From contig NZ_CP098478.1 of the NCBI RefSeq assembly GCF_023702675.1, forward strand, positions 1,178,001-1,242,000: a stretch of DNA of 64,000 nt, written 5' to 3'. The notes below the pieces were generated by a model, which saw only the letters and a list, made by a program, of their open reading frames with translations, ran no database searches and was not told where the DNA came from. The translations under genes were made by a program, and so were the position numbers. This document shows, piece after piece, positions 43,064-63,811 of the stretch (its first letter is position 1; every line of letters starts with the position of its first letter). The stretch comes from Acinetobacter sp. C26M (GTDB taxonomy: Bacteria > Pseudomonadota > Gammaproteobacteria > Pseudomonadales > Moraxellaceae).

Positions 43064-44269
43064 ATGAGCGAAGTCGCAATTACACGTAGCAATTTTAATG
43101 ATTGGATGGTTCCAGTTTTTGCCCCAGCAAACTTCATTTTAGTGCGTGGCGAAGGGTCACGTCTTTGGGATCAAAACGATAAAGAATATGTTGATTTTGC
43201 AGGTGGGATCGCGGTAAATGCCTTGGGTCATGCACATCCTGTTGCAGTAAAAGCCTTAACTGAACAAGCACAAAAGCTATGGCACATTGGGAATGGTTAT
43301 ACCAATGAGCCTGTATTACGCCTTGCGAAACAATTGGTGGATAGTACTTTTGCTGACAAAGTCTTTTTCTGTAACTCTGGTGCAGAAGCGAATGAAGCAG
43401 CATTAAAACTGGCACGTAAAGTTGGTTTACTCAGTGGTAATCCAAACAAGAACCAGATTGTTGCATTTAAAAATGCTTTCCACGGTCGTACTTTATTCAC
43501 AGTAACAGCAGGTGGTCAGCCAAAATATTCTCAAGATTTTGCACCATTACCAGGTGGCATTGAACACACTGCATTTAATGACCTTGAAGCAGTAAAAGCA
43601 GCAATCACTGAAAATACTTGTGCCGTGATTGTTGAGCCAATTCAGGGTGAAGGTGGCGTTCTGCCAGCAGATATCGAATTCTTAAAAGGCTTACGTGCAC
43701 TATGTGATGAAAAAGGCGCTGTGCTGATTTTTGATGAAGTACAAACGGGTGTCGGTCGTACAGGTTCATTGTATGCCTATATGAACACTGGAGTAACACC
43801 AGACATTCTCACTACGGCAAAAGCATTGGGTGGTGGTTTCCCAATTGGTGCAATGATTACGACAGATCATTATGCAAACATGTATGCAGTCGGTGATCAT
43901 GGTACAACCTATGGCGGAAATCCATTGGCTTGTGCAGTTGCTGGTGCGGTATTTGAATTTATCAATACACCAGAAGTGTTAGACGGCGTTAAACAACGTC
44001 ACCAATATTTCATCGATGCCTTAAACAAAATCAATGCTGAGTACGGATTGTTCAAAGAAATCCGTGGTCAAGGTTTGTTAATCGGTTGTGTATTGAAAGA
44101 TGAACATGCAGGCAAAGCGAAGAATATCGTGACCTTAGCGGGTGAAGAAGGTTTATTGGCCTTGGTCGCAGGTGCAGATGTGGTGCGCTTTACCCCTTCA
44201 TTGATCATTCCTCAACACGATATTGATGAAGGTCTAAGTCGTTTTGTTCGTGCCTTAGCGCGCCTCTAA
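43064..44269 (+). CDS. astC: Succinylornithine aminotransferase
   Basis: PLP enzyme converting succinylornithine to succinylglutamate semialdehyde. 401 residues, class III aminotransferase (406 in E. coli). Motifs: [40 protein letters not shown], and the PLP-lysine segment [15 protein letters not shown]. It may double as acetylornithine aminotransferase (ArgD-like). An AGGAAGTGAG ribosome site lies upstream, and a GGCTTGTT hairpin (43010-43033) separates it from gdhA. Confidence 0.9.
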
Positions 44270-44290
44270 GTCTGCTTTGAGCATCTGCCC

Positions 44291-46803
<2,513 letters not shown>

Positions 46804-46835
46804 GTCGGCTCGTATCGGGACACAGGGAGAATAAA

Positions 46836-48176
46836 ATGTCAGGTTATGAAATTAATTTTGATGGTTTAGTAGGGCCGACCCATCATTATGCAGGCTTATC
46901 GTTTGGTAATGTCGCATCGACCAAGAATCGTAATAATGCGTCAAATCCTAAGCTAGCAGCAAAGCAAGGCTTAAAGAAAATGAAAGCCCTTGCTGACTTA
47001 GGCTTGAAGCAAGGTGTGTTTGCTCCCCAAGAGCGTCCGCATGTACCAACGCTACGCCGTTTGGGTTTTACTGGCAGTGATATTGACGTGATTACCCAAG
47101 CGATGCGTACTGCACCAGCCTTATTATCATCGTTGAGCTCTGCTTCTTCGATGTGGACTGCCAACTCTTGTACGGTGTCACCATCTGCTGATAGTGCTGA
47201 TGGGCGTATGCATTTTACCGCTGCAAACCTGAATAATAAGTTCCATCGATCAATTGAGCATCATACGACTACACGCATTCTTCAAGCGATGTTCAATAAT
47301 GATGTATATTTCGCGCATCACGAAGCACTGCCTGAAGCAGCTTTGTTTGGTGATGAAGGGGCAGCCAATCATAACCGCCTTGGTGGTGCATATGATCAGG
47401 CGGGTGTACAGGTTTTTGTTTATGGTCAGCAGCAACTGGGTGGAACGGTTGCACCACAGAAATTCCCTGCACGTCAAACCCGTGAGGCAAGTGAAGCAAT
47501 TGCCCGTTTACATCGTTTAGATGCGAAACGGACGGTGTTCATTCAGCAAAATCCTGATGTGATTGATCAAGGCGTATTCCACAACGATGTAATCGCGGTG
47601 AGTAATCAACAGGTATTATTCCATCATCAACAGGCGTTTTTAAATCAGGCTGCTGCGCTGGAAGAAATTGGTCAAAAAATGGCAGGTATTGGTCAAGAAT
47701 TTGTGTCGATTGAAGTGCCAGACAGTCGTGTCACAGTTGAAGATGCGGTCTCGACTTATTTGTTCAACAGCCAGATTTTGACTCGTGCAGATGGCGGCAT
47801 GAGCATTGTGGTGCCAGAGGAATCACGTCACAACAAGGCGGTATGGAGCTACTTGAATGACATGATTCAAATGGGTACGCCAATTGATGACATCAAGGTA
47901 TTTGATTTGCGTGAAAGTATGCGTAATGGCGGTGGACCTGCATGTTTGAGATTGCGTGTTGCGGTGAATGAAGCGGAACTGAATGCGGTAAATCCAAACT
48001 TGTTTATGAATGATGCATTGTTCAAAACACTGAATCAGTGGGTCGATCAGCATTATCGTGATGAGTTAACACAAGACGATTTGGCCGATCCAAGTTTATT
48101 GATCGAGAGCCGTACCGCATTAGATGAGTTAACCAAAATTTTAGCTTTAGGTTCGGTTTATCACTTCCAAAGATAA
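46836..48176 (+). CDS. astB: N-succinylarginine dihydrolase
   Basis: Hydrolyses succinylarginine to succinylornithine, two NH3 and CO2. 446 residues (447 in E. coli), amidinotransferase-superfamily propeller. [15 protein letters not shown] at the N-terminus, [10 protein letters not shown], and the catalytic Cys in [12 protein letters not shown] are diagnostic. GGGAGA ribosome site 6 bases upstream. Confidence 0.95.
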
Positions 48177-48209
48177 ACAGTAAACAACGGCTTTTAAGGA
48201 TGAAAGTAC

Positions 48210-49184
48210 ATGGTTGATCTATTAACGTTGACTTTAGAACAACGAGTTCCTGTGCAAATGCAAGGGGAAACAGCTGGATTTACATGGCAATGGCTAGGTG
48301 AAGGGCTATTGCAATGTACTCCAAAAACAGCCTATAGAAAAACCATGCTGCTTTCTGCGGGTATTCATGGCAATGAAACTGCACCGATCGAATTGTTGGC
48401 AAATATCATCAATGATTTATTTGCAGAACGTTTAACTTTGGCAGTACGGGTACTTTTTGTGTTCGGTAACCCAGAAGCCATTCGTCACGGTGTTCGTTAT
48501 CTTGAAAATGATATGAACCGTATGTTCTGTGGCGCGTATCAAAATTTAATTCAAGATCAAGAAACTGAACGGGCGGCACATTTAGAACAAGTTAGCGCAC
48601 AGTTTTTTGCCGATAGTGAGGTAGACGCACAGCGTTATCACTACGATCTACATACCGCCATTCGTGTATCACGATTACCAGTATTTGCCTTATTCCCTTA
48701 TCAGACTCAGCCTTATGATGACTTTCTCATCCAAAGCTTAAAGGCTGCTGATTTGGATGCTTTGGTCTATCACAATGCAGTTGGGAAAACCTTTACCCAC
48801 TTTACTGCTGAAAAGTTTCATGCCGCGAGTAGTACTTTGGAGTTAGGTAAGGCTAAGCCATTTGGTGAAAATGATTTAGCTGAATTTGCCAGTACCGACC
48901 AGATGCTACGTGCCGTCCTTGCAGATCAGGCTTTGCCGATCAGACAGAAATCCGACATTCGACAGTTTAAGGTGGTGGATTCAGTATTAAAACAAAGTGA
49001 AGATTTTCAACTCAAATTGAGTGCTGACGCTCCAAACTTTTCTACTTTTCAGAAAGGTGAGTTGATTGCAACACAACAGGCTGGGGATTATGTCGCGCAT
49101 GATCAACAAGTCTGGATTTTATTTCCAAACCCTAAGGTAAAAACAGGGCTTCGGGCTGGACTGATTTTAAAAGAAATTGAATAA
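48210..49184 (+). CDS. astE: Succinylglutamate desuccinylase
   Basis: Final step, releasing succinate and glutamate. 324 residues, zinc carboxypeptidase-like (AspA/AstE). Zinc-ligand motif [15 protein letters not shown] and the later HYDLHTAIR, with the catalytic Glu in [13 protein letters not shown]. Starts 33 bp after astB; last enzyme of the operon, followed by 172 bases leading to the permease. Confidence 0.93.
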
Positions 49185-51161: not shown

Positions 51162-51812
51162 ATGGCGAATAAAAATAATCCATCCCTAGTGATTGGTCAG
51201 CAAGTCAGACTCACTGAACTGGCGGGTTGTGAAGAATGCGATGCAATATATCGCAGGGTTGAGCTTGCATCAGGTGAACGGGCATATTGCACCTGTTGTG
51301 GCGCGGAGTTATATCGTCGAAGTCGATCTTTTTCGTCTTTGCTTGCCTTGGTCATTACTGCTTTGATTGTTTTTGTGATTGCCAATAGTTTTCCCATCGT
51401 GATTGTTGAGCTACAGGGCAATACCTCTCAGACCACTTTAATTGGTGCTACCTGGACCATGTTTCATATTGATCGTGCATTGGTCGGTGTTTTGATTCTG
51501 ATTACAACTTTTATTGTGCCTTTGGTTGAGCTGTTATTGCTGAGCTATGTGCTTTTCTTTATTAGTGTATTGAAGATTAGGCCTCAATTTTTGACTTTGG
51601 CACTGAGAGCCTTATTTCTGTTTCGGACATGGGGAATGGTTGAGGTTTTTTTAATAGGTGTACTTGTAACCTTGGTCAAACTTGTTGGGATGGTCACCGT
51701 CATTCCTGGTGTTGCACTCTGGGCATTTACATTATTGAGCGTGCTTTTGGTCTATATTGCTTCGGTCAAGATTAAAGATATCTGGGATGAAGTTGATCGG
51801 AGTTTGGGATGA
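51162..51812 (+). CDS. pqiA: PqiA-like membrane protein, first half-size copy
   Basis: 216 residues with one PqiA domain: a Cys4 zinc-ribbon-like motif (CEECDAIY...CTCCGAEL, about 22-50) and four membrane helices. Full E. coli PqiA has two such domains fused in one chain of about 417 residues; here each half is a separate gene. Part of the inner-membrane base of a PqiABC intermembrane lipid transport complex. Stop overlaps the next start by 4 bases. Confidence 0.85.
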   Translation: MANKNNPSLVIGQQVRLTELAGCEECDAIYRRVELASGERAYCTCCGAELYRRSRSFSSLLALVITALIVFVIANSFPIVIVELQGNTSQTTLIGATWTMFHIDRALVGVLILITTFIVPLVELLLLSYVLFFISVLKIRPQFLTLALRALFLFRTWGMVEVFLIGVLVTLVKLVGMVTVIPGVALWAFTLLSVLLVYIASVKIKDIWDEVDRSLG

Positions 51813-52588
51813 AGCAAAAACATGACCATGACACCGAGATCGGTTCAATTGTAGAACACCTTTCCGATGTTGATTTACAGATCAAAAATTATGTCAGAGC
51901 AAAACAGGTTGGGCTCATTCAATGTCATTGCTGTGGATTACTGAATGCTGTAGCGAGTCACGCAGATCAGCACAATCATGCTCAATGTTCCAGATGTAAA
52001 AGTACATTGCACTCACGTAAACCACAAAGTTTAAATCGTACTTTTGCTTTGGTGGTCGCTGCAGCAATTTTATATATTCCAGCCAATGTGCTACCTATGA
52101 CGGAAACAGATTCTTTGTTGGGGCGTCAGCAAGATACCATTATTAGTGGTGTGATCTATTTTTGGCAAAATAGTGATTATCTGGTGTCTGTGGTTATTTT
52201 TATGGCCAGTATTTTTATCCCGATTTTAAAATTATTGATTCTGATTTTTTTATTAATTTCAGTCTACATGCAGTCATCTTCGAGATGGCATTTTACCCCT
52301 GAACAATGTGCGCTGATGTATCGTATTGTTGAATTTATTGGGCGTTGGTCGATGATCGATGTCTTTGTGGTTGCATTGCTGACTGCATTGATTCAAATTC
52401 AGTCATTGGCCACTATTTTGGCAGGGCCTGGCGCAGTCGCTTTTGGTGCTGTAGTGGTGCTGACCATGTTTGCTTCACTCAGTTTTGATCCAAGAATTAT
52501 TTGGGACAATTATTTCAAGGCGCGTCATGCAAATGCGCAACAATCAAATCATTTGAAAGGAACGGCGATTCATCAATTAAAGAGTTAA
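51809..52588 (+). CDS. pqiA: PqiA-like membrane protein, second half-size copy
   Basis: 259 residues, second PqiA domain: soluble head with CHCCGLLNAV...CSRCKSTL (about 37-67) and four helices (FALVVAAAILYIPANVLPM; LKLLILIFLLISVYM). GRWSMIDVFVVALL is the family's conserved helix. The ATGA overlap with its upstream copy suggests a one-to-one complex that replaces the fused protein. The tail is basic and His-containing. Confidence 0.85.
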   Translation: MKQKHDHDTEIGSIVEHLSDVDLQIKNYVRAKQVGLIQCHCCGLLNAVASHADQHNHAQCSRCKSTLHSRKPQSLNRTFALVVAAAILYIPANVLPMTETDSLLGRQQDTIISGVIYFWQNSDYLVSVVIFMASIFIPILKLLILIFLLISVYMQSSSRWHFTPEQCALMYRIVEFIGRWSMIDVFVVALLTALIQIQSLATILAGPGAVAFGAVVVLTMFASLSFDPRIIWDNYFKARHANAQQSNHLKGTAIHQLKS

Positions 52589-52633
52589 GATTGACGATGA
52601 GCCTTATTTTTGACCTATAAAAGAAAGATCACT

Positions 52634-54286
52634 ATGTCAGAAAATACCCCGAATAGCCAAGATTCTGAAGAAAACACCACGGTGTTAACGCAGAACGATG
52701 CAATCTTTGACGAACCTGAAAAAAAGAAGGGACGTTGGAGACCTGCGCTCATTTGGCTGGTTCCATTTGTTGCGCTGTTAATCGCACTTTCGCTTGCAGC
52801 AAAAGCGGTTTTGGATACAGGCCCAACCATTGAAGTGTCTTTCCGAACAGCAGAAGGCTTGGTTGCAGGGAAAACCACGGTACGTTATAAGCAGGTCGAT
52901 ATTGGTTTGGTTCGACAAATTGATCTTTCGGATGATCGTTCCCATGTCATTGCCAAAATCGAATTACGCAAAGATGCCAGTAATTTTGCTGCCAAAGATT
53001 CGCGCTTTTGGGTGGTCAGACCTCGAGTAGGAACGGGCGGTATTTCGGGTATTGATACCTTACTCTCAGGGGCATACATCGAAGTCGATGGAGGAAAAGC
53101 TGAACAGAAGCAAGAGAATTTTACTGGGCTTGAAGTTCCACCTGTAGTGTCATCGGATATACCGGGTAAGGTGTTTTTCTTAAAAGCACAGGACTTGGGG
53201 TCACTGGATGTTGGCGTGCCGATTTACTATCGCAGAATTAATGTCGGGCAGATTACAGCATATAAATTGGCAGCTGATGGAAAAACGGTTGAACTACAAA
53301 CTTTTATTCAATCTCCTTACGATAAGTTCGTAACCACAGATGCTCGTTTTTGGCAGGCCAGTGGGGTCGATGTGACCTTAAATGCGTCAGGATTTAATCT
53401 GGATACACAATCGCTTGCCAGTATTATTGCGGGTGGTATTGCCTTTGGTTATCCAGAAAATTCTAGTGGCGCTATTGCACCAGACAATAGTTATTTTACG
53501 TTATCAGACTCTCGCAAAGAGGCAATGAAAGAGCCTGATGGTAAGCCACGTCCAATTATTATGTACTTTGATCATTCGCTTCGTGGTTTAACTGCGGGTG
53601 CACCAATTGACTTTATGGGCATTGAAATTGGTAATGTCAAAGCAATCAACGTCGAATTTGATCAGTCTTATACGCATTTAAGAATGCGCGTGGATGCAGT
53701 GATTTATCCATCGCGTTTAGCGCATGGCAAAGAACTTGATCCAGATGGTGAAATTTTTAAATACTTTATCGAGAGAGGTTGGCGTGCGCAGATGCGGACA
53801 GGTAATTTATTAACAGGTCAGAACTATATTGCCTTTGATAAGTTTCCAAAAGCCAAAGCCGCTTCTTTAATTACAAGACCAGATGGACGTGTTGAAGTAC
53901 CAACTACGGCAACAGAGTTGAGTGGCTTACAAGCGCAAGTTTCACAAATCGCGGATAAAGTGAGTAAGTTCCCACTCGAAGAAATTGGACAAGATGTTCG
54001 TAAGACGCTTAATAATATGAACACCACCATTGAATCGACAGACAAATTGGTAAAACAGTTGGATGGTAAAGTCGCACCTGGTCTACAAGCGACGCTGAAT
54101 GATGTGCGTAAAACCATGCAATCGAGTGAATCCATTTTATCCAGTGATGCACCGATGCAGCAGGATGTGCGTAAAGCATTGCAGCAAATGACTCGAGCTG
54201 CGGCATCTTTACAATTAATGGCTGATTATATTGAACAGCATCCTGAATCATTGATTCGGGGTAAAAAAGCAGAGGCAAACAAATGA
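52634..54286 (+). CDS. pqiB: PqiB-like MCE-domain protein
   Basis: 550 residues: cytoplasmic start, one membrane helix (ALIWLVPFVALLIALSLAAK, about 35-54), then three tandem MCE domains (FRTAEGLVAGKTTVRYKQVDIG; FFLKAQDLGSLDVGVPIYYRRINVG; FDHSLRGLTAGAPIDFMGIEIG) and a C-terminal coiled coil. MCE rings stack into a periplasm-spanning tunnel that carries lipids. The ATG at 52634 is preferred over an upstream TTG. Overlaps pqiC by 4 bases. Confidence 0.9.
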   Translation: MSENTPNSQDSEENTTVLTQNDAIFDEPEKKKGRWRPALIWLVPFVALLIALSLAAKAVLDTGPTIEVSFRTAEGLVAGKTTVRYKQVDIGLVRQIDLSDDRSHVIAKIELRKDASNFAAKDSRFWVVRPRVGTGGISGIDTLLSGAYIEVDGGKAEQKQENFTGLEVPPVVSSDIPGKVFFLKAQDLGSLDVGVPIYYRRINVGQITAYKLAADGKTVELQTFIQSPYDKFVTTDARFWQASGVDVTLNASGFNLDTQSLASIIAGGIAFGYPENSSGAIAPDNSYFTLSDSRKEAMKEPDGKPRPIIMYFDHSLRGLTAGAPIDFMGIEIGNVKAINVEFDQSYTHLRMRVDAVIYPSRLAHGKELDPDGEIFKYFIERGWRAQMRTGNLLTGQNYIAFDKFPKAKAASLITRPDGRVEVPTTATELSGLQAQVSQIADKVSKFPLEEIGQDVRKTLNNMNTTIESTDKLVKQLDGKVAPGLQATLNDVRKTMQSSESILSSDAPMQQDVRKALQQMTRAAASLQLMADYIEQHPESLIRGKKAEANK

Positions 54287-54984
54287 TAAGAACAATCATC
54301 GCTAAACATTCATATGCTGTAGCAGGAATGCTCAGCAGCGTGAGCATCTTATCGGCTACTGTGTTGCTCACAGCCTGTTCGGGTTCACCCACACCGAATT
54401 ATTACACTTTAGCAAGCAAAGTTTCTCCATTGCCGAGTTCAAAGGTCAGGGTTATTGAAGTATTGCCTGTTGGCTTGCCTGATCGGATTAATCGTGCGCC
54501 TATCGTGATCCAGGATGCAGCAGGTAAATCTAAAATCATGGAAAACGAGCGTTGGACGTCTACGCTTGGGGCTGAATTAAGAGATAACTTATCTGCTGGC
54601 TTACAGCAAAAGCTTGGTGCAGTGGATCGTTATAACAGCGGTATGGTGGGTGGCAAGGTGTCTTATCGTGTTGCAACTGATTTTTCACATTTTGATATTA
54701 TTAATACATCTGATATTGCGAACAAAAATGTTGAAGTTTCTGTTGCATGGATCATTAAGCGTAATGATCCAAATATCACTTTGGATCAAAACTCAACTCA
54801 GAATCAGCAGTTGGCTTGTCGTATGACGTTTACTCAGCCAGTATCAAGTAAGAACAGTCAGATACAAGACATTGTGAGTGGCGCGAGTAGTTCATTGAGT
54901 CGAGTGATTGATGCAATGGCACTGTCAATTGTGTCCCTAGATGCAAAAACCTCACCCAACATAAATGGGGTACTTTGTTCATAA
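54283..54984 (+). CDS. pqiC: PqiC outer-membrane lipoprotein
   Basis: 233 residues with a lipoprotein signal (VLLTACSGS, lipidated Cys at about residue 32) and the PqiC/DUF330 domain (YYTLASKVSPLPSS; VEVLPVGLPDRINRAPIV adjusted by one residue in the family). It is expected to dock the PqiB tunnel at the outer membrane. Followed by a terminator. Confidence 0.88.
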   Translation: MIRTIIAKHSYAVAGMLSSVSILSATVLLTACSGSPTPNYYTLASKVSPLPSSKVRVIEVLPVGLPDRINRAPIVIQDAAGKSKIMENERWTSTLGAELRDNLSAGLQQKLGAVDRYNSGMVGGKVSYRVATDFSHFDIINTSDIANKNVEVSVAWIIKRNDPNITLDQNSTQNQQLACRMTFTQPVSSKNSQIQDIVSGASSSLSRVIDAMALSIVSLDAKTSPNINGVLCS

Positions 54985-54992
54985 TTTGAATA

Positions 54993-55020
54993 AAAAGTGG
55001 TCAGATTGATCACTTTTGTT
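54993..55020 (+). terminator. Terminator after pqiC
   Basis: 11-bp stem AAAAGTGGTCA/TGATCACTTTT with one G-U pair and a 3-base loop, followed by GTT and a T-rich stretch, 9 bases past the pqiC stop. Confidence 0.6.
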
Positions 55021-55152: not shown

Positions 55153-58100
55153 ATGAACCAATGTGTGATGAGCGCAAAAAATATTATTCGTGGTAAGCAC
55201 CACCCAGAATTCTTACAACATGAAGTGCTGGCTGATATTTTTATTCAGACGGCACAGACTTTTCCAGAAAAAATTGCCTTGATCGAGGCAGAACAAAAGC
55301 TGAGCTATGGCGAGCTGTACCAGCAAGCATTGGTCATGGCGCAGCATTTGACCCTTAAAGGGGTCAAAGCTGGCGATATCATTGGCTTATGGCTGCCGCG
55401 TGGTATTGAATTATTAAAATCTCAGTTGGCAATTTGTCTGAGCGGAGCAGCTTGGTTACCATTTGATATGGATACGCCTGCAGATCGAATCGCCGTGTGC
55501 CTTGAAGATGCTGCAGCAGTGGGTATGATTACCAGTGATGAATGGTATGAACACTTACAAGACGTCCCACAGACCAAATGGACCAATACTGAATTACAGC
55601 GACCATTGCATGAAACTGTGGAATTAGCCAAAACCACGCCTGAGCAGCCTGCCTATATTATTTATACCTCAGGTTCAACAGGAAAGCCGAAAGGCATTGT
55701 GATTACTCAGAAGAATATTTGTCATTTTCTGCGTAGTGAAAACAGTATTTTAGGGATTCAGGCACAGGACAAGGTCTATCAGGGTTTCTCAGTTGCTTTT
55801 GATATGTCCTTTGAAGAAATCTGGTTGTCTTATCTAGTGGGTGCAAGCTTGTGGATTGCACCAAAATCCTTAGTCAGCGATCCAGAGCGACTCTGCCAAA
55901 CATTGAAACAACAACAGATTACCGTATTACATGCTGTGCCGACTTTACTGGCTTTATTTCCTGAAGACGTTCCGAACTTGCGTATCATCAACCTAGGTGG
56001 GGAAATGTGCCCTGATTCATTGGTGGAACGTTGGGCCTTACCACACCATCAAATGTTTAATACCTATGGTCCGACTGAAACCACGGTATCGGCTAGTTTA
56101 GAATTATTACAGCAAGGAAAACCCGTCACCATTGGTAAGCCATTACCGAACTACGGCATGTTGGTGATTAATGCAGAGCGAGAGCTATTAGCTCAAGGTG
56201 AAACGGGGGAGCTGTGTATTTTTGGTCCGAGTGTGGCACAAGGTTATTTAGGTCGAGCGGATTTAACTGCAGACAAATTTATTGAGAATCCTTGGGCAAA
56301 TAATGAGGATGAAATCAGCTTGTATCGCACAGGAGACCTCGCCAAAATTGATGAGTTTGGTCAAGTACATTGTTTAGGTCGTGCCGATGATCAAATAAAA
56401 ATTCGTGGTTTCCGTGTCGAACTCGGTGAAATTGAAGCTGCGTTATGTGATCTTGATGGAATTGGAACGGCAGCAGTTATTTTAAGAGCTGAAGATGGGA
56501 TTGATCAGCTGATTGCTTTTATTGCACCTGAGTTGGAGGCAAAACAAGCGATTGAAATTAAGCAGCTCAGATACCAGCTTAGTCAGCGTTTACCGCCATA
56601 TATGGTGCCAAATCGCTTTGAAATTATTGAAAAAGTGCCACGACTATTATCAGGGAAAATTGACCGCAAGGCACTGAAGGCTCGCCCGTTAACCAGTGCG
56701 ATTGACCGAAGTGAATCTGACCAGCCACAGAATGAAGCTGAACAGATTTTATTTGAGATTCTAGGTCGTTTATTTCCCAATATCCCCATCAAGTTAGATT
56801 CAGATTTCTTTGATGATCTTGGAGGTCATTCTTTACTCGCTGCAGTACTGATCTCGAATTTACGTGAACACCCTCAATATAGCCATCTGACCATTCAAAG
56901 CTTATATCAGGCAAGAAAAGTCGGGGTGATTGCAGCTTTAATGTTAGAACAACCTGAACCTTCCTTATTTGATCGCCAGATTGGACAAGACAATCCACGT
57001 CATCAAGGTTATAAATGGCTGTGTGGGATTGCACAGGCGGTGACGATTCCAGTGCTGATCTCGATCAATATTCTGCAATGGTTGGCACCATTTTTTACCT
57101 ATCATTATTTTACTGGGGGAGCACGAGACAGTATTCCTTATGCGATCGCGTTGTCTTTGCTGGTGTATATCAGTGTGATTATTGCCAGTTTTGCAGTTTC
57201 AATTACGGTAAAACGTTTACTGATGCTAGGGGTTGGTGCAGGTCGTTATCCACTGTGGGGAATGACCTATTTCCGTTGGTGGTTGGCAGATCGTATCAGC
57301 AGTATTTCACCTGTATATCTACTCTCAGGTTCAACCTTACTGAATTTATATCTCAAAGCACTTGGGGCGAAGATTGGGCATGATGTCAGCATTAGCTCGG
57401 TGCATATCCGTATGCCTTCATTGCTAAAGATTGAAGATGGTGTGAGTGTTGGTTCCAATGTAAATCTGGAAAATGCAAAGGTGGAGCACGGGTATTTAGT
57501 CTTGGGCTCAATTCAGCTTAAAAAAGACAGTTATGTGGGATCTTATGCAGTATTGGAAGAAAATACCGTGTTAGAACCGCAAGCGCATGTCAATGCTTTA
57601 ACCTCGATTGAATATGGTACAACGGTACCTGCAGGCGAAATTTGGGATGGAACACCAGCGAAAAAAATAGGCTATATAGATGAGCTTGAATCATTAGCAG
57701 CACGTCCGAAATTATCCTTAATGAGAAAATTTGCGGAATATGGTTATTACAGTGTCAGTGCCTTAATCATTGCGTGCTTATTCTTTATTCCGATTTTCCC
57801 AAGCTTCCTGTTGGTAGATTGGTTAGATGTCAATGTGTTTAATATCGACCCAAATAATCACGTTCAAACCGCACTGTATTATTTCATCCTTGCGATTCCT
57901 GCCAGTGCCATGATGATGATCATCACTGCATTAATTTCATCGGCTATACGTAAAGTGGTGTTGCCAAGTTTAGAGTCAGGCACTTATGCGGTGCATGGTG
58001 GTACATATTATCGTAAATGGTTTGCCGCTCAGATTTTAGAAACCAGTTTGCAAACCTTACATGGTTTGTTCGCCACTATATATGCTCCGACATGGTTCCG

Positions 58101-59151
58101 TATGCTGGGTGCGAAAGTGGGTAGAAATACAGAAATTTCTACCGCTACTGGTGTGATTCCTGAGATGCTGACCCTTGGTGAGGAAAGCTTTATTGCTGAT
58201 GCGGTGATGCTCGGTGATGAAGAAATTAAAGGCGGTTGGATGTCGTTGAAATCTACTCAAATTGGCAATCGTAGCTTTGTTGGGAACAGTGCATATATCG
58301 CGGATGGTACGGTATTACCTGATAATGTTTTGATTGGCGTGCAATCGAAAACGCCAGATAACCTAGAAATGTATTCGGGGCAAACATGGTTCGGTTCACC
58401 ACCTTTACTATTGCCAGCGCGTGAAGCAGCAGCACAATATCCAGATCATTTAACTTTTAAACCAAGCGCGAAACGCCGTTTAATGCGAGGCTTGATTGAA
58501 GGTTTACGTATCGTATTACCAACAGCACTTGCCATTGGTGTGGGTTATATGATTGTTTTAGAAGTGATTGATGTCATTAATGATTATAGTATTGCGATAG
58601 GATTGCTAGCTTTAACTTTAGCTGGGCTGTTATATGGAGTTGGTTGTTTTGTCATTGTGACCGTATTGAAATGGGCTTTAATTGGACGTTATCAACCACG
58701 TTCAGCACCGATGTGGACCATGTTCGTTTGGCTCAGTGAAGGGATTACCAGCCTATATGAATCTGTTGCGATTCCGAACTTCTTGAATTATTTAAGAGGG
58801 ACACCAATGTTGCCTTTCTTCTTGCGTCTTTTAGGTGTTGGGATTGGTAAGGATGTATATCTGGATACTGCTGATATCACCGAATTTGATTGTGTGAAGA
58901 TTGGTGATCGTGCTGAGTTTAATAGCTTTTCTGGACCACAAACGCATCTATTTGAAGACCGCATCATGAAAATTGGCCAAGTCAATATTGGCAGTGATGT
59001 AGTAGTAAATTCGCGCAGTATTATTTTATACAATGCCAATGTAGCGGATCATGCGGTATTGGGCCCACTGACATTGGTGATGAAAGGAGAAAACATTCCT
59101 GCAAAATCAGCATGGATTGGCTCACCTGCGGTGCCTTGGAAACATTCATAA
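55153..59151 (+). CDS. Pls/PosA-family NRPS-like poly-amino-acid synthetase
   Basis: 1332 residues. Adenylation domain about 20-510 (core YIIYTSGSTGKPKG about 166-180; TYGPTETT 304-311; Lys502 in SGKIDRK), a carrier domain with phosphopantetheine Ser560 (GGHSLL), then three membrane-spanning C-terminal units: helix pairs near 615-680, 860-935 and 1115-1185, each followed by a hexapeptide-repeat-like soluble domain. No condensation or thioesterase domain exists. This is the plan of epsilon-poly-L-lysine synthetase (Pls) and the Acinetobacter delta-poly-L-ornithine synthetase (PosA). By alignment to GrsA the binding-pocket residues are D217, M218, E221, H260, I279, L281, T304, V312, S313, K502; the Asp-Met-Glu start is seen in ornithine-activating domains. 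A basic homopolymer is the likely product. Confidence 0.85.
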   Translation: MNQCVMSAKNIIRGKHHPEFLQHEVLADIFIQTAQTFPEKIALIEAEQKLSYGELYQQALVMAQHLTLKGVKAGDIIGLWLPRGIELLKSQLAICLSGAAWLPFDMDTPADRIAVCLEDAAAVGMITSDEWYEHLQDVPQTKWTNTELQRPLHETVELAKTTPEQPAYIIYTSGSTGKPKGIVITQKNICHFLRSENSILGIQAQDKVYQGFSVAFDMSFEEIWLSYLVGASLWIAPKSLVSDPERLCQTLKQQQITVLHAVPTLLALFPEDVPNLRIINLGGEMCPDSLVERWALPHHQMFNTYGPTETTVSASLELLQQGKPVTIGKPLPNYGMLVINAERELLAQGETGELCIFGPSVAQGYLGRADLTADKFIENPWANNEDEISLYRTGDLAKIDEFGQVHCLGRADDQIKIRGFRVELGEIEAALCDLDGIGTAAVILRAEDGIDQLIAFIAPELEAKQAIEIKQLRYQLSQRLPPYMVPNRFEIIEKVPRLLSGKIDRKALKARPLTSAIDRSESDQPQNEAEQILFEILGRLFPNIPIKLDSDFFDDLGGHSLLAAVLISNLREHPQYSHLTIQSLYQARKVGVIAALMLEQPEPSLFDRQIGQDNPRHQGYKWLCGIAQAVTIPVLISINILQWLAPFFTYHYFTGGARDSIPYAIALSLLVYISVIIASFAVSITVKRLLMLGVGAGRYPLWGMTYFRWWLADRISSISPVYLLSGSTLLNLYLKALGAKIGHDVSISSVHIRMPSLLKIEDGVSVGSNVNLENAKVEHGYLVLGSIQLKKDSYVGSYAVLEENTVLEPQAHVNALTSIEYGTTVPAGEIWDGTPAKKIGYIDELESLAARPKLSLMRKFAEYGYYSVSALIIACLFFIPIFPSFLLVDWLDVNVFNIDPNNHVQTALYYFILAIPASAMMMIITALISSAIRKVVLPSLESGTYAVHGGTYYRKWFAAQILETSLQTLHGLFATIYAPTWFRMLGAKVGRNTEISTATGVIPEMLTLGEESFIADAVMLGDEEIKGGWMSLKSTQIGNRSFVGNSAYIADGTVLPDNVLIGVQSKTPDNLEMYSGQTWFGSPPLLLPAREAAAQYPDHLTFKPSAKRRLMRGLIEGLRIVLPTALAIGVGYMIVLEVIDVINDYSIAIGLLALTLAGLLYGVGCFVIVTVLKWALIGRYQPRSAPMWTMFVWLSEGITSLYESVAIPNFLNYLRGTPMLPFFLRLLGVGIGKDVYLDTADITEFDCVKIGDRAEFNSFSGPQTHLFEDRIMKIGQVNIGSDVVVNSRSIILYNANVADHAVLGPLTLVMKGENIPAKSAWIGSPAVPWKHS

Positions 59152-59176
59152 ACTTTGATGTGAAACCTACCAAAGC

Positions 59177-59212
59177 AGAGGGATAACAGGACAATTATCT
59201 TGTTATTCCTCT
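59177..59212. terminator. Hairpin after the synthetase gene
   Basis: 12-bp stem (AGAGGGATAACA with TGTTATTCCTCT, one G-U pair) and a 12-base loop, 26 bases past the synthetase stop. No long T-run, so a terminator of moderate strength or an mRNA-end structure. Confidence 0.5.
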
Positions 59213-59340
59213 TATAACTCAGCAGTTTAAAGAAAAAACACAGGCGCTTTATAATCAAGCTAAAATTATAAATTTTAATTTTATTTTAAGATTGTTTTTA
59301 TAATATTTTTTTATATAAAGTCATCATGGAATGATTGACG

Positions 59341-59913
59341 ATGTCAATTGAAACGATCGATATTCGCTTATTTAACTGGATTAACTCAGCTGCAACGCAA
59401 AACCTGCTTTTGGATAAAGTGGCTTTATTCGCATCACATAATTTAATCGCAGTATTATTTGTTTTTTTAATTGCTTCATTGTTCATTAAGGATAAAAAAT
59501 ACCAAACACAGTTTATCAAGATGCTCATCACCATCGCAGTTTCTCTATTGGTTACTCAGATCATTCATGTGGTGTATTTCCATCCACGTCCTTTTGATTT
59601 AGACATTGGACATATCCTTACAGGGCATGGTTCTTCCTCCTCTTTTCCAAGTCAACATACTCTGACAGTGGCAACGATTGCCTTCTCATATCTTTTGTCT
59701 GGTTTTCGAAAAATTGGCAGTGCGGCACTGCTACTAGGTTTGATTGTAGGTTGGTCAAGGATTTATATAGGTGTTCATTTTCCGTTTGATGTGCTCGGTT
59801 CATTTATGATTGCCTTTATCATTGGATTGGGTATGAACGAGATTTTCAAAATATTTATTTTAAGAGTGAAAAAGCCGATTTCAGCTTCAGTAGTTGAAGA
59901 GGAAATAATTTAA
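59341..59913 (+). CDS. PAP2-family phosphatase (undecaprenyl-diphosphatase like)
   Basis: 190 residues from ATG 59341; an in-frame TTG lies two codons earlier. Five to six hydrophobic helices. Catalytic blocks HPRPFD, SSSFPSQHT and SRIYIGVHFPFDVLG carry the Arg, Ser/His and Arg/His of the PAP2 active site. BcrC-like members recycle undecaprenyl diphosphate for peptidoglycan and surface glycan synthesis. Separate from the synthetase by about 190 bp; a functional link is only positional. Confidence 0.85.
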   Translation: MSIETIDIRLFNWINSAATQNLLLDKVALFASHNLIAVLFVFLIASLFIKDKKYQTQFIKMLITIAVSLLVTQIIHVVYFHPRPFDLDIGHILTGHGSSSSFPSQHTLTVATIAFSYLLSGFRKIGSAALLLGLIVGWSRIYIGVHFPFDVLGSFMIAFIIGLGMNEIFKIFILRVKKPISASVVEEEII

Positions 59914-60035: not shown

Positions 60036-61004
60036 TTAAGACTCATCAGTTCTTGCTGTTAGTTGTCCTTCAGCGGTGAGTTGTTCAGCCATTTCCTTGG
60101 TTTTTCTTAAACCTGGCATACGGTATTCGGTATGCCCATAGTCTTTGATTGATTTCCAGCGACCACCCCAAGTTAATCCAACAGACTCGGCAACTTGACC
60201 ATATAACTCATAGCCGCGCATTGCCCAAGGATCACGCTCCGTAATCACGACTTTACCATTGCGCTTAAAGGCGACATCTGCTGCTAGACCAAATTGGTGA
60301 TAACTTTGATAACCTTTGGCGCGAGTTGTATTTGGGTTGCCTGCTAACATATTCTGACGACTTGGGCTGCGGTAGCCTTCAAGTAATACCAGTTCATAAC
60401 CATGTTGTTCTTTCATGATTTTAAAGACCATAAGCAGACGTTGCTTATAGCGTGGGTTGATTTTATCCCACTTACGATCAACCAAGGATGAATTTAAACT
60501 GCCATGTGAATGGGTAATTGGAATCTCGATTTGAGAAGCATCAATACTCGGATCTGTTGGATGCTGTGCCTGATAAGCTTGCTCTAGACGAGTTGCTTCA
60601 ACAATTGCATCTTGGATCAATGTATCGTCAACATCAGGTGGTGGGCTGAGCATTTCGCCATTGAGTAAGGTATAAATTTGTGGATCGGTTTCTTTTAAAT
60701 ATTCAGCTTCAATTCGTGTGGAATTGATTGGGCGGGTAAACGCAAAAATAATAATACTGGCAAATAAAAAAAAGCCTGCGATTAAAATCCACCATTGCTG
60801 TAGGTGCCAATGAGATTGTAATTTTTCTGGTGAAGCAGCTTGATGCATGTTCTCAGCGAACTGCATTGCATTAACGATTTTCTTTTTGCCACTCGGTAAT
60901 AACGATTGCAACAACTGTTTGCATTTATAGCGTAGCTCATAAGACATGAGCAGCGTTAATCCGATCGCGACAGCGATAAAGCAAAAGAAAATAAGAAAAA
61001 TCAT
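60036..61004 (-). CDS. tagX: TagX-like M15 peptidoglycan endopeptidase of T6SS
   Basis: 322 residues. N-terminal helix (MIFLIFFCFIAVAIGLTLLM) and a second at about 70-90 place the enzyme in the periplasm. The M15 zinc motif SYHQFGLAADVAF and a later GHTEYRM supply the His/Asp/His ligands. TagX of Acinetobacter is an L,D-endopeptidase that opens the cell wall for T6SS assembly, and the neighbours here are T6SS genes. Starts 3 bases after the preceding gene ends. Confidence 0.85.
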   Translation of the reverse strand: MIFLIFFCFIAVAIGLTLLMSYELRYKCKQLLQSLLPSGKKKIVNAMQFAENMHQAASPEKLQSHWHLQQWWILIAGFFLFASIIIFAFTRPINSTRIEAEYLKETDPQIYTLLNGEMLSPPPDVDDTLIQDAIVEATRLEQAYQAQHPTDPSIDASQIEIPITHSHGSLNSSLVDRKWDKINPRYKQRLLMVFKIMKEQHGYELVLLEGYRSPSRQNMLAGNPNTTRAKGYQSYHQFGLAADVAFKRNGKVVITERDPWAMRGYELYGQVAESVGLTWGGRWKSIKDYGHTEYRMPGLRKTKEMAEQLTAEGQLTARTDES

Positions 61005-61007
61005 TTT

Positions 61008-61619
61008 TTATTGCAATTCATTCACAGCAAAAGGCTTTTGTGTCACTTTTATCTGTACTGTTGCCTCAGGTGCTTCCGCCTCTGGCTCTTTCGTTGGAGC
61101 GGCTTTGGCTGGTTGAGGGGCTACTGCTGGCTTCACGGTTTTATTTGTTATCGTGGGAGCTGGTTCACTTTTCCCTTGTTGTGATTTTGCAGGGACTACC
61201 TTTTGCTGTGCTTTGGCATTTGGCTCATTGGCAAAAGGAGAAATGTGCTGTCCAGCCGGTGCTGGTGCAGCGGGTGCAGGTGTACGTTGGAAGAATTTAT
61301 TTAAATCATTACTACCAGGTTGGGTAAAATTATTATCTTCTACCGATTCAGCTGTTTCATGATGACCAGCTGCTGTTTCCTCTGAAACTTGAGCTGTCAC
61401 TTTGCTATGTGTTTGAACACGATTATTATCTTCTAGCGCTTGTTCTTGCTGCGGAGCAACTGTATCGCTAGGACTTGAGTCCGTAGCAAAGAGAAAGAAA
61501 ATCAATGCTGCAAAGATAATCCCTGAAAGAAATCCGATCAGTAAATAAATTACAGGCGATAAGGTTTTTTTCTTATTACTCTGTAATATGCGTATAGAAG
61601 TTGCTCTTTCCTGAGTCAT
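61008..61619 (-). CDS. T6SS-cluster bitopic protein, Ala/Pro-rich
   Basis: 203 residues. Short basic cytoplasmic start, a membrane helix (VIYLLIGFLSGIIFAALIFFLF, about 24-45), then a low-complexity periplasmic tail of Ala, Pro, Gln and Lys ending in VTQKPFAVNELQ. No enzymatic motif. Lies between tssL and tagX in the same orientation and is probably co-expressed; it may anchor or tether periplasmic T6SS parts. I cannot name the family. Confidence 0.6.
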   Translation of the reverse strand: MTQERATSIRILQSNKKKTLSPVIYLLIGFLSGIIFAALIFFLFATDSSPSDTVAPQQEQALEDNNRVQTHSKVTAQVSEETAAGHHETAESVEDNNFTQPGSNDLNKFFQRTPAPAAPAPAGQHISPFANEPNAKAQQKVVPAKSQQGKSEPAPTITNKTVKPAVAPQPAKAAPTKEPEAEAPEATVQIKVTQKPFAVNELQ

Positions 61620-61629
61620 ACGTTATCAA

Positions 61630-62436
61630 CTAAGGCAAATGGATGGTGACATGTGCTTCTTCAGCAGGCGCTGAAATCACATTTTGATATGGGTTTAAAG
61701 CATTCTGGTTTTGCTTTGATAACATAAACTTGAGTCCAGCAAAGGTGAGTGCTGCAAACATAAGTAAGAAGATCAGTATCCAGAAAAAAGGCAGTTCATG
61801 GTGAATAATATGTTTAATCTGATCCGGAATTGCTGCAAACGGAGAGAATGCCGCTTTTTTACCTTTGAGATAATCAATTTCGTCACCAACACGGGCGACA
61901 AGATGGTTTAAGCTTTCAACAGATTCCAGTCGATATTTGCCTTGAAAACCGAGTAATAAGCAGTAGTGGAAAACTTCAAGCGAAGCTAAACGCTCTTTAC
62001 CACGACTACGTAATTGTTCCAATATCTCAAAAAAACGATAACCTGCGAGTTGTGAACCAAATAAGCTCAACTGAAGTGGGCTAATCAGCCAAGTATTTTG
62101 CAAGTTAAAGTAGGCTGGATCTTGTTGAGTGGCAATGGTTTCATCAATCAATGCACAAAATGCATATTTCGAATCATGAATATCATCGGCAGAAAATTGC
62201 AATCGTTTGGCCTGCTGCTCAAAACGATTTAATAGATCCAGAATTTTTTCACGGAAATCATTTGGGTTCGATGGAATGTAACGGTTACGAAGCAAGAAGA
62301 CTAAATAAAAACCGTCATGTAATAGATCAATCAAGTTGGTCGCTTGCATTTTATTTTGTGGTTGCTCAGACGTTGGGAAGCCTGAACCAATTTTTCCATC
62401 ATCGAATAAAGAGGGGATGCCTGTGGGTTGAGTCAT
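61630..62436 (-). CDS. tssL: T6SS inner-membrane protein TssL (DotU/IcmH)
   Basis: 268 residues. Cytoplasmic DotU domain (NLIDLLHDGFYLVFLLRNRY; DDIHDSKYAFCALIDETIATQ; LHNT-like NTWLISPLQLSLFG; FEILEQLRSRG) then a single C-terminal membrane helix (FFWILIFLLMFAALTFAGLKFM, about 222-243). No OmpA-like C-terminal extension, so any peptidoglycan anchoring must come from another protein. TssL joins the TssJLM membrane complex and recruits the TssK baseplate. Confidence 0.93.
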   Translation of the reverse strand: MTQPTGIPSLFDDGKIGSGFPTSEQPQNKMQATNLIDLLHDGFYLVFLLRNRYIPSNPNDFREKILDLLNRFEQQAKRLQFSADDIHDSKYAFCALIDETIATQQDPAYFNLQNTWLISPLQLSLFGSQLAGYRFFEILEQLRSRGKERLASLEVFHYCLLLGFQGKYRLESVESLNHLVARVGDEIDYLKGKKAAFSPFAAIPDQIKHIIHHELPFFWILIFLLMFAALTFAGLKFMLSKQNQNALNPYQNVISAPAEEAHVTIHLP

Positions 62437-62446
62437 TGTTATTCTC

Positions 62447-63811
62447 TTAACTATTCATTACGGCAATGAGTTCAATACTGATATCTTGGAATCCGGCTGG
62501 CACATAGACACAGATAGATTCTGATTCAAGCATCCGTTGATACAATTCGTGATGTGGCTCGATTTCAAAATAGCTCACCCCAGAGCGCACAGGAATTGCA
62601 GTTGGGACTTGCATTAAATGATGGAGTGGAACTGCTGGAAGTGCGGCAATAACACGTTGTTCAACATCAATTGTGCTACCCACTTTGAAGCGTAACGGTA
62701 CAATTTGAATAAGTTCATGCGTTTGCATCATGCTGCTTGAAACCGCGATATAGAGACGGGTATCACGGGTAATTTTGTCAGACTCAAGACTACCAACCCA
62801 ATATGATGGTCGTGTTTCTTTCAAGGCAATACTGAAATAACGACTTGAAATAATGGTATCTAATAAATCTCTTAGAATCAGATCAAGCTGCTGAAAACTA
62901 TCTTGTAACTGGTGATGCTTATACTGTGGCAAATGGTCCACATCATACGCGGTCGAGAAGGTCAGTAAAGAACCAGTTAAACGTAATAATTCAGAGAACA
63001 AACGCTCAGGGTGAATCAGTGGATATTGGAGTAAATGGTTCAGCCCTGCATATGCCGTGTTTAAAGCATTGATCAGCCAAAATGAAACAATATCCCCTGA
63101 ACGGAACTCAATCAGTTTCTGTTCATTTTCACGGTTATTACTTTGAATCATCTTAATTTTTGCCTTAATCACGTTCAAAGTACGTTTTAGGTTGTTAATT
63201 AAAGATTCTGATGCAGCAATATGCAAAATTGGCGGAATAAACTTATTATCTAATTCAAAATGGCCTGAGCTTTGGCGTTTAATTTTAGCAACAGGAACAT
63301 ATAAGAATCCATCTAGATTTTGGCTAGGTTGAATATGTTGTTCAAGCAACTTAAATTCGGCACGACGACGTAACAGATTTAGATCAGCTGGACTGGCATC
63401 GGTAAACAGATCGTGGGTTTCTACCAAGTAGTTATGATAACGGCTAGAAACTGAGCGTGTTTCATCGGCAATGTTTTTCTTATTGGCCTGCAAAATTGGT
63501 AGCGCAAGATAAACCGTCATTTCACCTTGCAGATTAAGGTCATCTAACAATAATGGTTCAGGCAACAAGTCTTGGGCAGGCGCATGATAAATTTCACCAT
63601 CTTGCCAAATGATTTCAATTTCTTCTAAAGCTAAAATATGAGTGGAAAGTTGGATTTCATCAAATTTTAACTTCTGTACCCCATAGGCGTGTGGAATCAT
63701 TGCTCGAATGGTGTGATTCAAGCGTTGTTCATGATAAGTATCTTGGATCTGGAAATGTTGAGGACGTAAAAATAAGCCTTCACCCCAAAGAATCTTTTCT
63801 GCTTTAAACAT
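62447..63811 (-). CDS. tssK: T6SS baseplate protein TssK
   Basis: 454 residues, usual length. Recognised by the N-terminal KILWGEGLFLRPQHFQIQD and the C-terminal region with PLRFKVGSTIDVEQRVIAALPAVPLHHLMQVP and VRSGVSYFEIEP. Trimeric TssK connects the baseplate to the membrane complex. Ends 11 bases before tssL begins. Confidence 0.95.
   Translation of the reverse strand: MFKAEKILWGEGLFLRPQHFQIQDTYHEQRLNHTIRAMIPHAYGVQKLKFDEIQLSTHILALEEIEIIWQDGEIYHAPAQDLLPEPLLLDDLNLQGEMTVYLALPILQANKKNIADETRSVSSRYHNYLVETHDLFTDASPADLNLLRRRAEFKLLEQHIQPSQNLDGFLYVPVAKIKRQSSGHFELDNKFIPPILHIAASESLINNLKRTLNVIKAKIKMIQSNNRENEQKLIEFRSGDIVSFWLINALNTAYAGLNHLLQYPLIHPERLFSELLRLTGSLLTFSTAYDVDHLPQYKHHQLQDSFQQLDLILRDLLDTIISSRYFSIALKETRPSYWVGSLESDKITRDTRLYIAVSSSMMQTHELIQIVPLRFKVGSTIDVEQRVIAALPAVPLHHLMQVPTAIPVRSGVSYFEIEPHHELYQRMLESESICVYVPAGFQDISIELIAVMNS

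Follow-up and report, generated by a model that had tools for sequence, protein, structure and literature searches.

A probable PosA-type delta-poly-L-ornithine synthetase in Acinetobacter sp. C26M

Described Pls/PosA synthetases and the window protein

The closest described system is PosA of Acinetobacter baumannii 307-0294. According to the accessible text of PMC10522769, this enzyme produces delta-linked poly-ornithine in vitro, as 7-12-mers, and prefers L-ornithine over L-lysine by an apparent kcat/KM difference of >160-fold; activity with L-ornithine was not detectable in its D217A and E221A mutants. The same text describes posA as a 'single gene operon' and reports that a synthetic 12-mer inhibited three fungi, with minimal effect on two bacteria tested. 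The epsilon-poly-L-lysine synthetase Pls of Streptomyces (A domain PDB 7WEW) is built, in the accessible text of PMC8117764, from an A domain, a carrier and six membrane helices with C1, C2 and C3, an arrangement that recurs in the protein described below. A wider question touched by these enzymes is how acyltransferase-like membrane repeats can build a polymer when condensation and thioesterase domains are both absent (PMC10522769, accessible text).

The window, the whole 64,000-nucleotide stretch of Acinetobacter sp. C26M that was analysed, contains a gene (Table 1) that is very probably the PosA orthologue of its Acinetobacter, the enzyme being known from another species of the genus. Its frame begins with the ATG at 55153, remains open across all 1332 codons and closes with a stop ending at 59151, in agreement with the coordinates, strand and frame of the first-pass annotation. 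That annotation had also recognised the full Pls/PosA architecture, and its adenylation domain, carrier site and Pls/PosA terminal domain were all found. The domain matches are far beyond chance: the profile search placed TIGR01733 over residues 51-442 (380.7 bits) and the Pls/PosA terminal-domain profile TIGR02353 over 627-1326, where its score of 720.3 bits clears a cut-off of 423.1, while a PP-binding match (Pfam) coincides with Ser560 in a GGHSL motif. No other Pls/PosA terminal domain exceeds the cut-off in the 3.93-Mb genome. The adenylation domain was delimited as residues 1-512, following the construct of PMC10522769 (accessible text).

Table 1. Positions of the posA orthologue and associated features in the window
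Feature	Position	Strand	Basis
posA orthologue, predicted delta-poly-L-ornithine synthetase, 1332 aa	55153..59151	+	frame, TIGR02353, naming, alignment
Adenylation domain, residues 1-512	55153..56688	+	profile matches, structures, A. baumannii alignment
Pocket D217 M218 E221 H260 N280 G282 T304 V312 S313	55801..56091	+	code read, loci, A. baumannii alignment
Pocket residue K502	56656-56658	+	code read, alignment
Carrier (thiolation) domain, approximate ends	56755..56952	+	PP-binding match (Pfam)
Phosphopantetheine Ser560	56830-56832	+	GGHSL motif
Pls/PosA terminal (polymerase) domain, residues 627-1326	57031..59130	+	TIGR02353, hydropathy, AlphaFold2
QTHLFEDR motif, residues 1263-1270, third repeat; candidate active-site element	58939..58962	+	comparison of 16 synthetases
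Terminator-like hairpin, 11 pairs	54993..55017	+	between pqiC and posA

Alignment with the copy of A. baumannii strain VB958 ties the window protein most directly to PosA. The two are of the same length and share 1186 of 1332 residues, with 458/512 identical in the adenylation domain and 651/732 across residues 601-1332; neither Ser560 nor any of the ten pocket residues differs. PosA of strain 307-0294 likewise has the domain order and ten-letter pocket code of the window protein. The best solved structures for the window protein are 8g95-8g98, headed by 8g95/8g96, and PDB 8G95-8G98 represent the adenylation domain of the 307-0294 enzyme (PMC10522769, accessible text). A cluster of proteins 96% identical to the window protein is named 'MULTISPECIES: delta-poly-L-ornithine synthetase PosA [Acinetobacter]' by NCBI, and the closest named copies (97% identical) belong to A. 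dispersus, Acinetobacter sp. ANC 3929, Acinetobacter sp. Ac_5812 and genomosp. 15BJ. The window copy comes from another Acinetobacter species than the described enzyme, and its neighbours also differ, being pqiABC and a PAP2 phosphatase gene as opposed to the greB side in the VB958 record.

Substrate pocket and predicted product

The pocket code of the window protein reads DMEHNGTVSK. The first-pass annotation correctly proposed a Pls/PosA-type synthetase whose Glu221-containing pocket suits a diamino acid, and eight of its ten pocket residues stand (D217, M218, E221, H260, T304, V312, S313 and K502). Its I279 and L281 were taken one place too early: residues 278-283 read I-I-N-L-G-G, so the residues are N280 and G282. 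The PosA code is printed as D M E H N G T V S K in the accessible text of PMC10522769, where Asn280 alone is numbered; G282 is our own assignment for the sixth letter. At 10/10 positions the pocket has the same residues as the A. baumannii copy, and it agrees with the crystallised PosA chain at all nine positions which that chain covers, so a pocket differing from those of characterised enzymes, as had been suggested, is rejected. The idea of a new cationic polymer is likewise unsupported, because the code is exactly that published for PosA (PMC10522769, accessible text). Judged from sequence comparison, neither the pocket nor the predicted product is novel, PosA having already been described from A. 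baumannii.

The code is strongly conserved among relatives. Among 41 named loci, 22 carry DMEHNGTVSK, 15 DMEHNGTVTK and 3 DMEHNGSVSK, and one is cut off yet agrees where readable; all 40 fully readable loci thus have DMEHNGTVSK apart from serine/threonine swaps at two places. The same holds for all 117 near-full-length proteins (>1250 aa) among the best 120 of 5091 homologues. In an alignment of 125 rows, comprising these 117 proteins, seven added relatives and the window protein, DMEHNG[TS]V[ST]K is found in 121, and the four rows with another code (Azospirillum, Rhizobium, Rhodococcus and Streptomyces) had all been included on purpose. In the sets compared, the ornithine-type code occurs in Acinetobacter, Undibacterium, Pseudomonas, Massilia, and metagenome bins named Opitutae and Verrucomicrobia.

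Polymerisation of another diamino acid, whether lysine, diaminobutyrate (DAB) or something new, is extremely unlikely. The family is common to poly-lysine and poly-diaminopropionate synthetases, and the A. baumannii adenylation domain shows modest activity on lysine and low activity on DAB, but PosA formed no polymer from lysine (PMC10522769, accessible text). The window pocket, moreover, is that of the A. baumannii enzyme. Position 218 is Ala in lysine enzymes and Phe in diaminopropionate and diaminobutyrate enzymes (PMC10522769, accessible text), whereas the window protein has Met218. Comparison with Pls pointed the same way, an annotated Pls having the lysine code DAESIGTVVK.

For the window protein, as a PosA orthologue, we propose the following working. 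By homology, the adenylation domain would activate L-ornithine, with Asp217 holding the alpha-amine, Glu221, Thr304 and Ser313 holding the delta-amine, and Met218 limiting chain length. Ornithine would then be loaded onto the phosphopantetheine of Ser560, presumably put on by the product of the one gene in the genome matching the PPTase family (PF01648), which lies elsewhere on the chromosome. The membrane-embedded terminal domain would link ornithines by isopeptide bonds between delta-amine and carboxyl groups, giving a short cationic chain. By analogy with the A. baumannii enzyme, the strain would make the same delta-poly-L-ornithine and may export it, and the most likely role of the polymer would be that of an antifungal or surface-acting secreted polymer. 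Chain length could differ, because 146 residues differ from the VB958 copy, 81 of them within residues 601-1332. The window protein offers a second case of an already characterised enzyme, with which it can be tested whether chain length and role hold across the genus.

Terminal domain and a conserved third-repeat motif

Hydropathy and the helices of an AlphaFold2 model (mean pLDDT 86.5) both place three membrane-helix pairs in the terminal domain, and the model shows three strand-rich blocks, or beta-rich repeats. The first repeat matches the hexapeptide acyltransferase fold (beta-helix relatives) and the second has a Hexapep match (Pfam). PosA differs from the hexapeptide (left-handed beta-helix) acyltransferases in fusing three repeats and membrane helices in one chain; its expected substrate, moreover, is an aminoacyl group bound to the carrier, in place of their CoA ester. 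A sequence search against solved structures revealed none of the terminal domain itself, its only hits being weak ones among hexapeptide acyltransferases and gamma carbonic anhydrases, and a Foldseek search by structure likewise showed none among the 50 rows listed of 493.

The third repeat contains the motif QTHLFEDR, of which Gln1263, His1265 and Asp1269 do not vary among the 16 synthetases compared; an annotated Pls has QTHLFHDR at this place. From this conservation we tentatively suggest, as a possibility we hold to be rather doubtful, that the polymerase domain throughout the Pls/PosA family performs acyl transfer at a single functional site, for which the QTHLF[EH]DR-like motif, located in the third repeat alone, would be the marker, and that C1 and C2 are structural or channel-forming copies. 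The motif offers a direct handle on the polymerase-domain question. In the literature searched, most subscription papers lying outside it, we found none of four spellings of the motif and no paper since 2022 on the Pls polymerization domain or its cryo-EM structure. Kito et al. 2013, cited in PMC4668381, reportedly carried out a mutational analysis of the three Pls domains, which may already cover the residue.

Surroundings, distribution and lineages of posA

In the window, posA lies between pqiABC (51162-54984) and the PAP2 phosphatase gene (59335-59913). It is very improbable that posA acts in the cell envelope together with its pqiABC neighbours, which are lipid-transport genes; this reading concerns its role and not its product. 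The gene does follow pqiABC directly and in the same orientation, both in the window and in 8/41 named loci, but the stretch around posA has no pqi match in the other 33, some of these stretches being short, and in L110, a relative that lacks posA, ~170 bp separate pqiC from the PAP2 gene. The terminator-like hairpin between pqiC and posA also speaks against it and weakly suggests that posA is transcribed apart from pqiC, although the region has five such sites against 4.4 expected. A partnership with pqiABC, or with the upstream genes of the arginine-succinyltransferase pathway (ast) of arginine catabolism, was rejected as a general rule on the same count of 8/41 loci. Other Acinetobacter copies have varied neighbours, in line with the 'single gene operon' of PMC10522769 (accessible text).

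The ast genes (43064-49184) look ordinary, as do those downstream (60036-63811), an M15 peptidase gene and type VI secretion (T6SS) genes of the DotU and VasE families. The M15 peptidase was considered as a polymer-degrading partner and set aside; it is beside the T6SS genes and stays put in the posA-free relative. Downstream of two actinobacterial copies lies an M1 metallopeptidase gene, whereas no such gene was seen beside the window copy. Among nine named loci with posA followed by the PAP2 gene, eight have a ~254-aa gene on the opposite strand between the two, which in the one scanned (L038) encodes a DUF347 membrane protein; the ninth (L051) and the window (59152-59334) are without it.

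Putative PPTase genes adjoin some copies outside the genus. A ~200-aa gene lies 3' of posA in 10/41 loci, all outside Acinetobacter; of four scanned, two match the PPTase family just below the cut-off and two have no match, and on sequence grounds we take the whole cluster to encode PPTases. Two Opitutae copies have a different 3' gene, the one scanned matching the PPTase family over the cut-off, and in Rhizobium an annotated PPTase gene adjoins the synthetase gene.

Within Acinetobacter, we surveyed 149 genomes, including that of the window, as a sample of a larger group, scoring at most four candidates per genome. A posA match (E-value 0) was found in 26, of which 22 have a full-length uninterrupted copy and four only broken ones (G119, G115, G024 and G099). 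G119 carries the gene twice (L112 and L113), both copies being split in two but at different points, and one of them lies beside pqiABC; the gene is in two pieces in G115, interrupted in G024, and reduced to about residues 1-646 and 1228-1331 in G099. In A. higginsii (L061), another frame, which we take to be a transposase, sits inside posA. Such patchiness and decay, together with the little effect of a posA knockout in A. baumannii, where growth was as in the wild type and biofilm slightly up (PMC10522769, accessible text), would fit a gene that is idle or decaying in the window strain too. This would be compatible with PosA orthology, but it is unlikely, since the window copy is open across its whole length with pocket and carrier motifs intact.

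A tree was built from 22 named loci plus the window, leaving out a broken A. ursingii copy, and in it the Acinetobacter copies form two lineages of 11 and 5 rows, each with support of 100/100. The second comprises A. baylyi, A. soli, A. guerrae and two unnamed strains and is 65-68% identical to the window PosA; the broken ursingii copy is equally distant. A core protein used as control, which we take to be SecF, is 85-88% identical to that of the window in the five second-group genomes searched. In A. rudis, SecF is 79-81% identical but PosA 84%. A second core protein, a weak control that is erratic within close groups (88-98%), places A. rudis (89-90%) no nearer than the second-lineage group (92-95%). 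One explanation for the two lineages would be movement of posA between species; another would be two old copies followed by losses. The GC content is unremarkable (0.427 for posA, 0.419 for the window). Four A. baumannii records labelled as plasmids match posA (CP040041.1, NZ_CP077849.1, NZ_CP064203.1 and NZ_CP104448.1), and we rejected plasmid carriage in Acinetobacter, reading them as mislabelled chromosomes on account of their length in three cases (3.66-4.09 Mb) and, in the fourth, of htpX, ttcA and greB lying near posA.

Second-lineage loci L049, L050, L066, L072 and L078 share an upstream gene on the same strand that we take to encode an ABC transporter, a possible exporter. On a plasmid of Skermanella rosea (L125 1-6896), ectB (diaminobutyrate transaminase), a Pls/PosA synthetase, a hypothetical protein, an S41 peptidase and a porin are encoded on one strand, and this row may be an operon for a diamino-acid polymer that leaves through the outer membrane.
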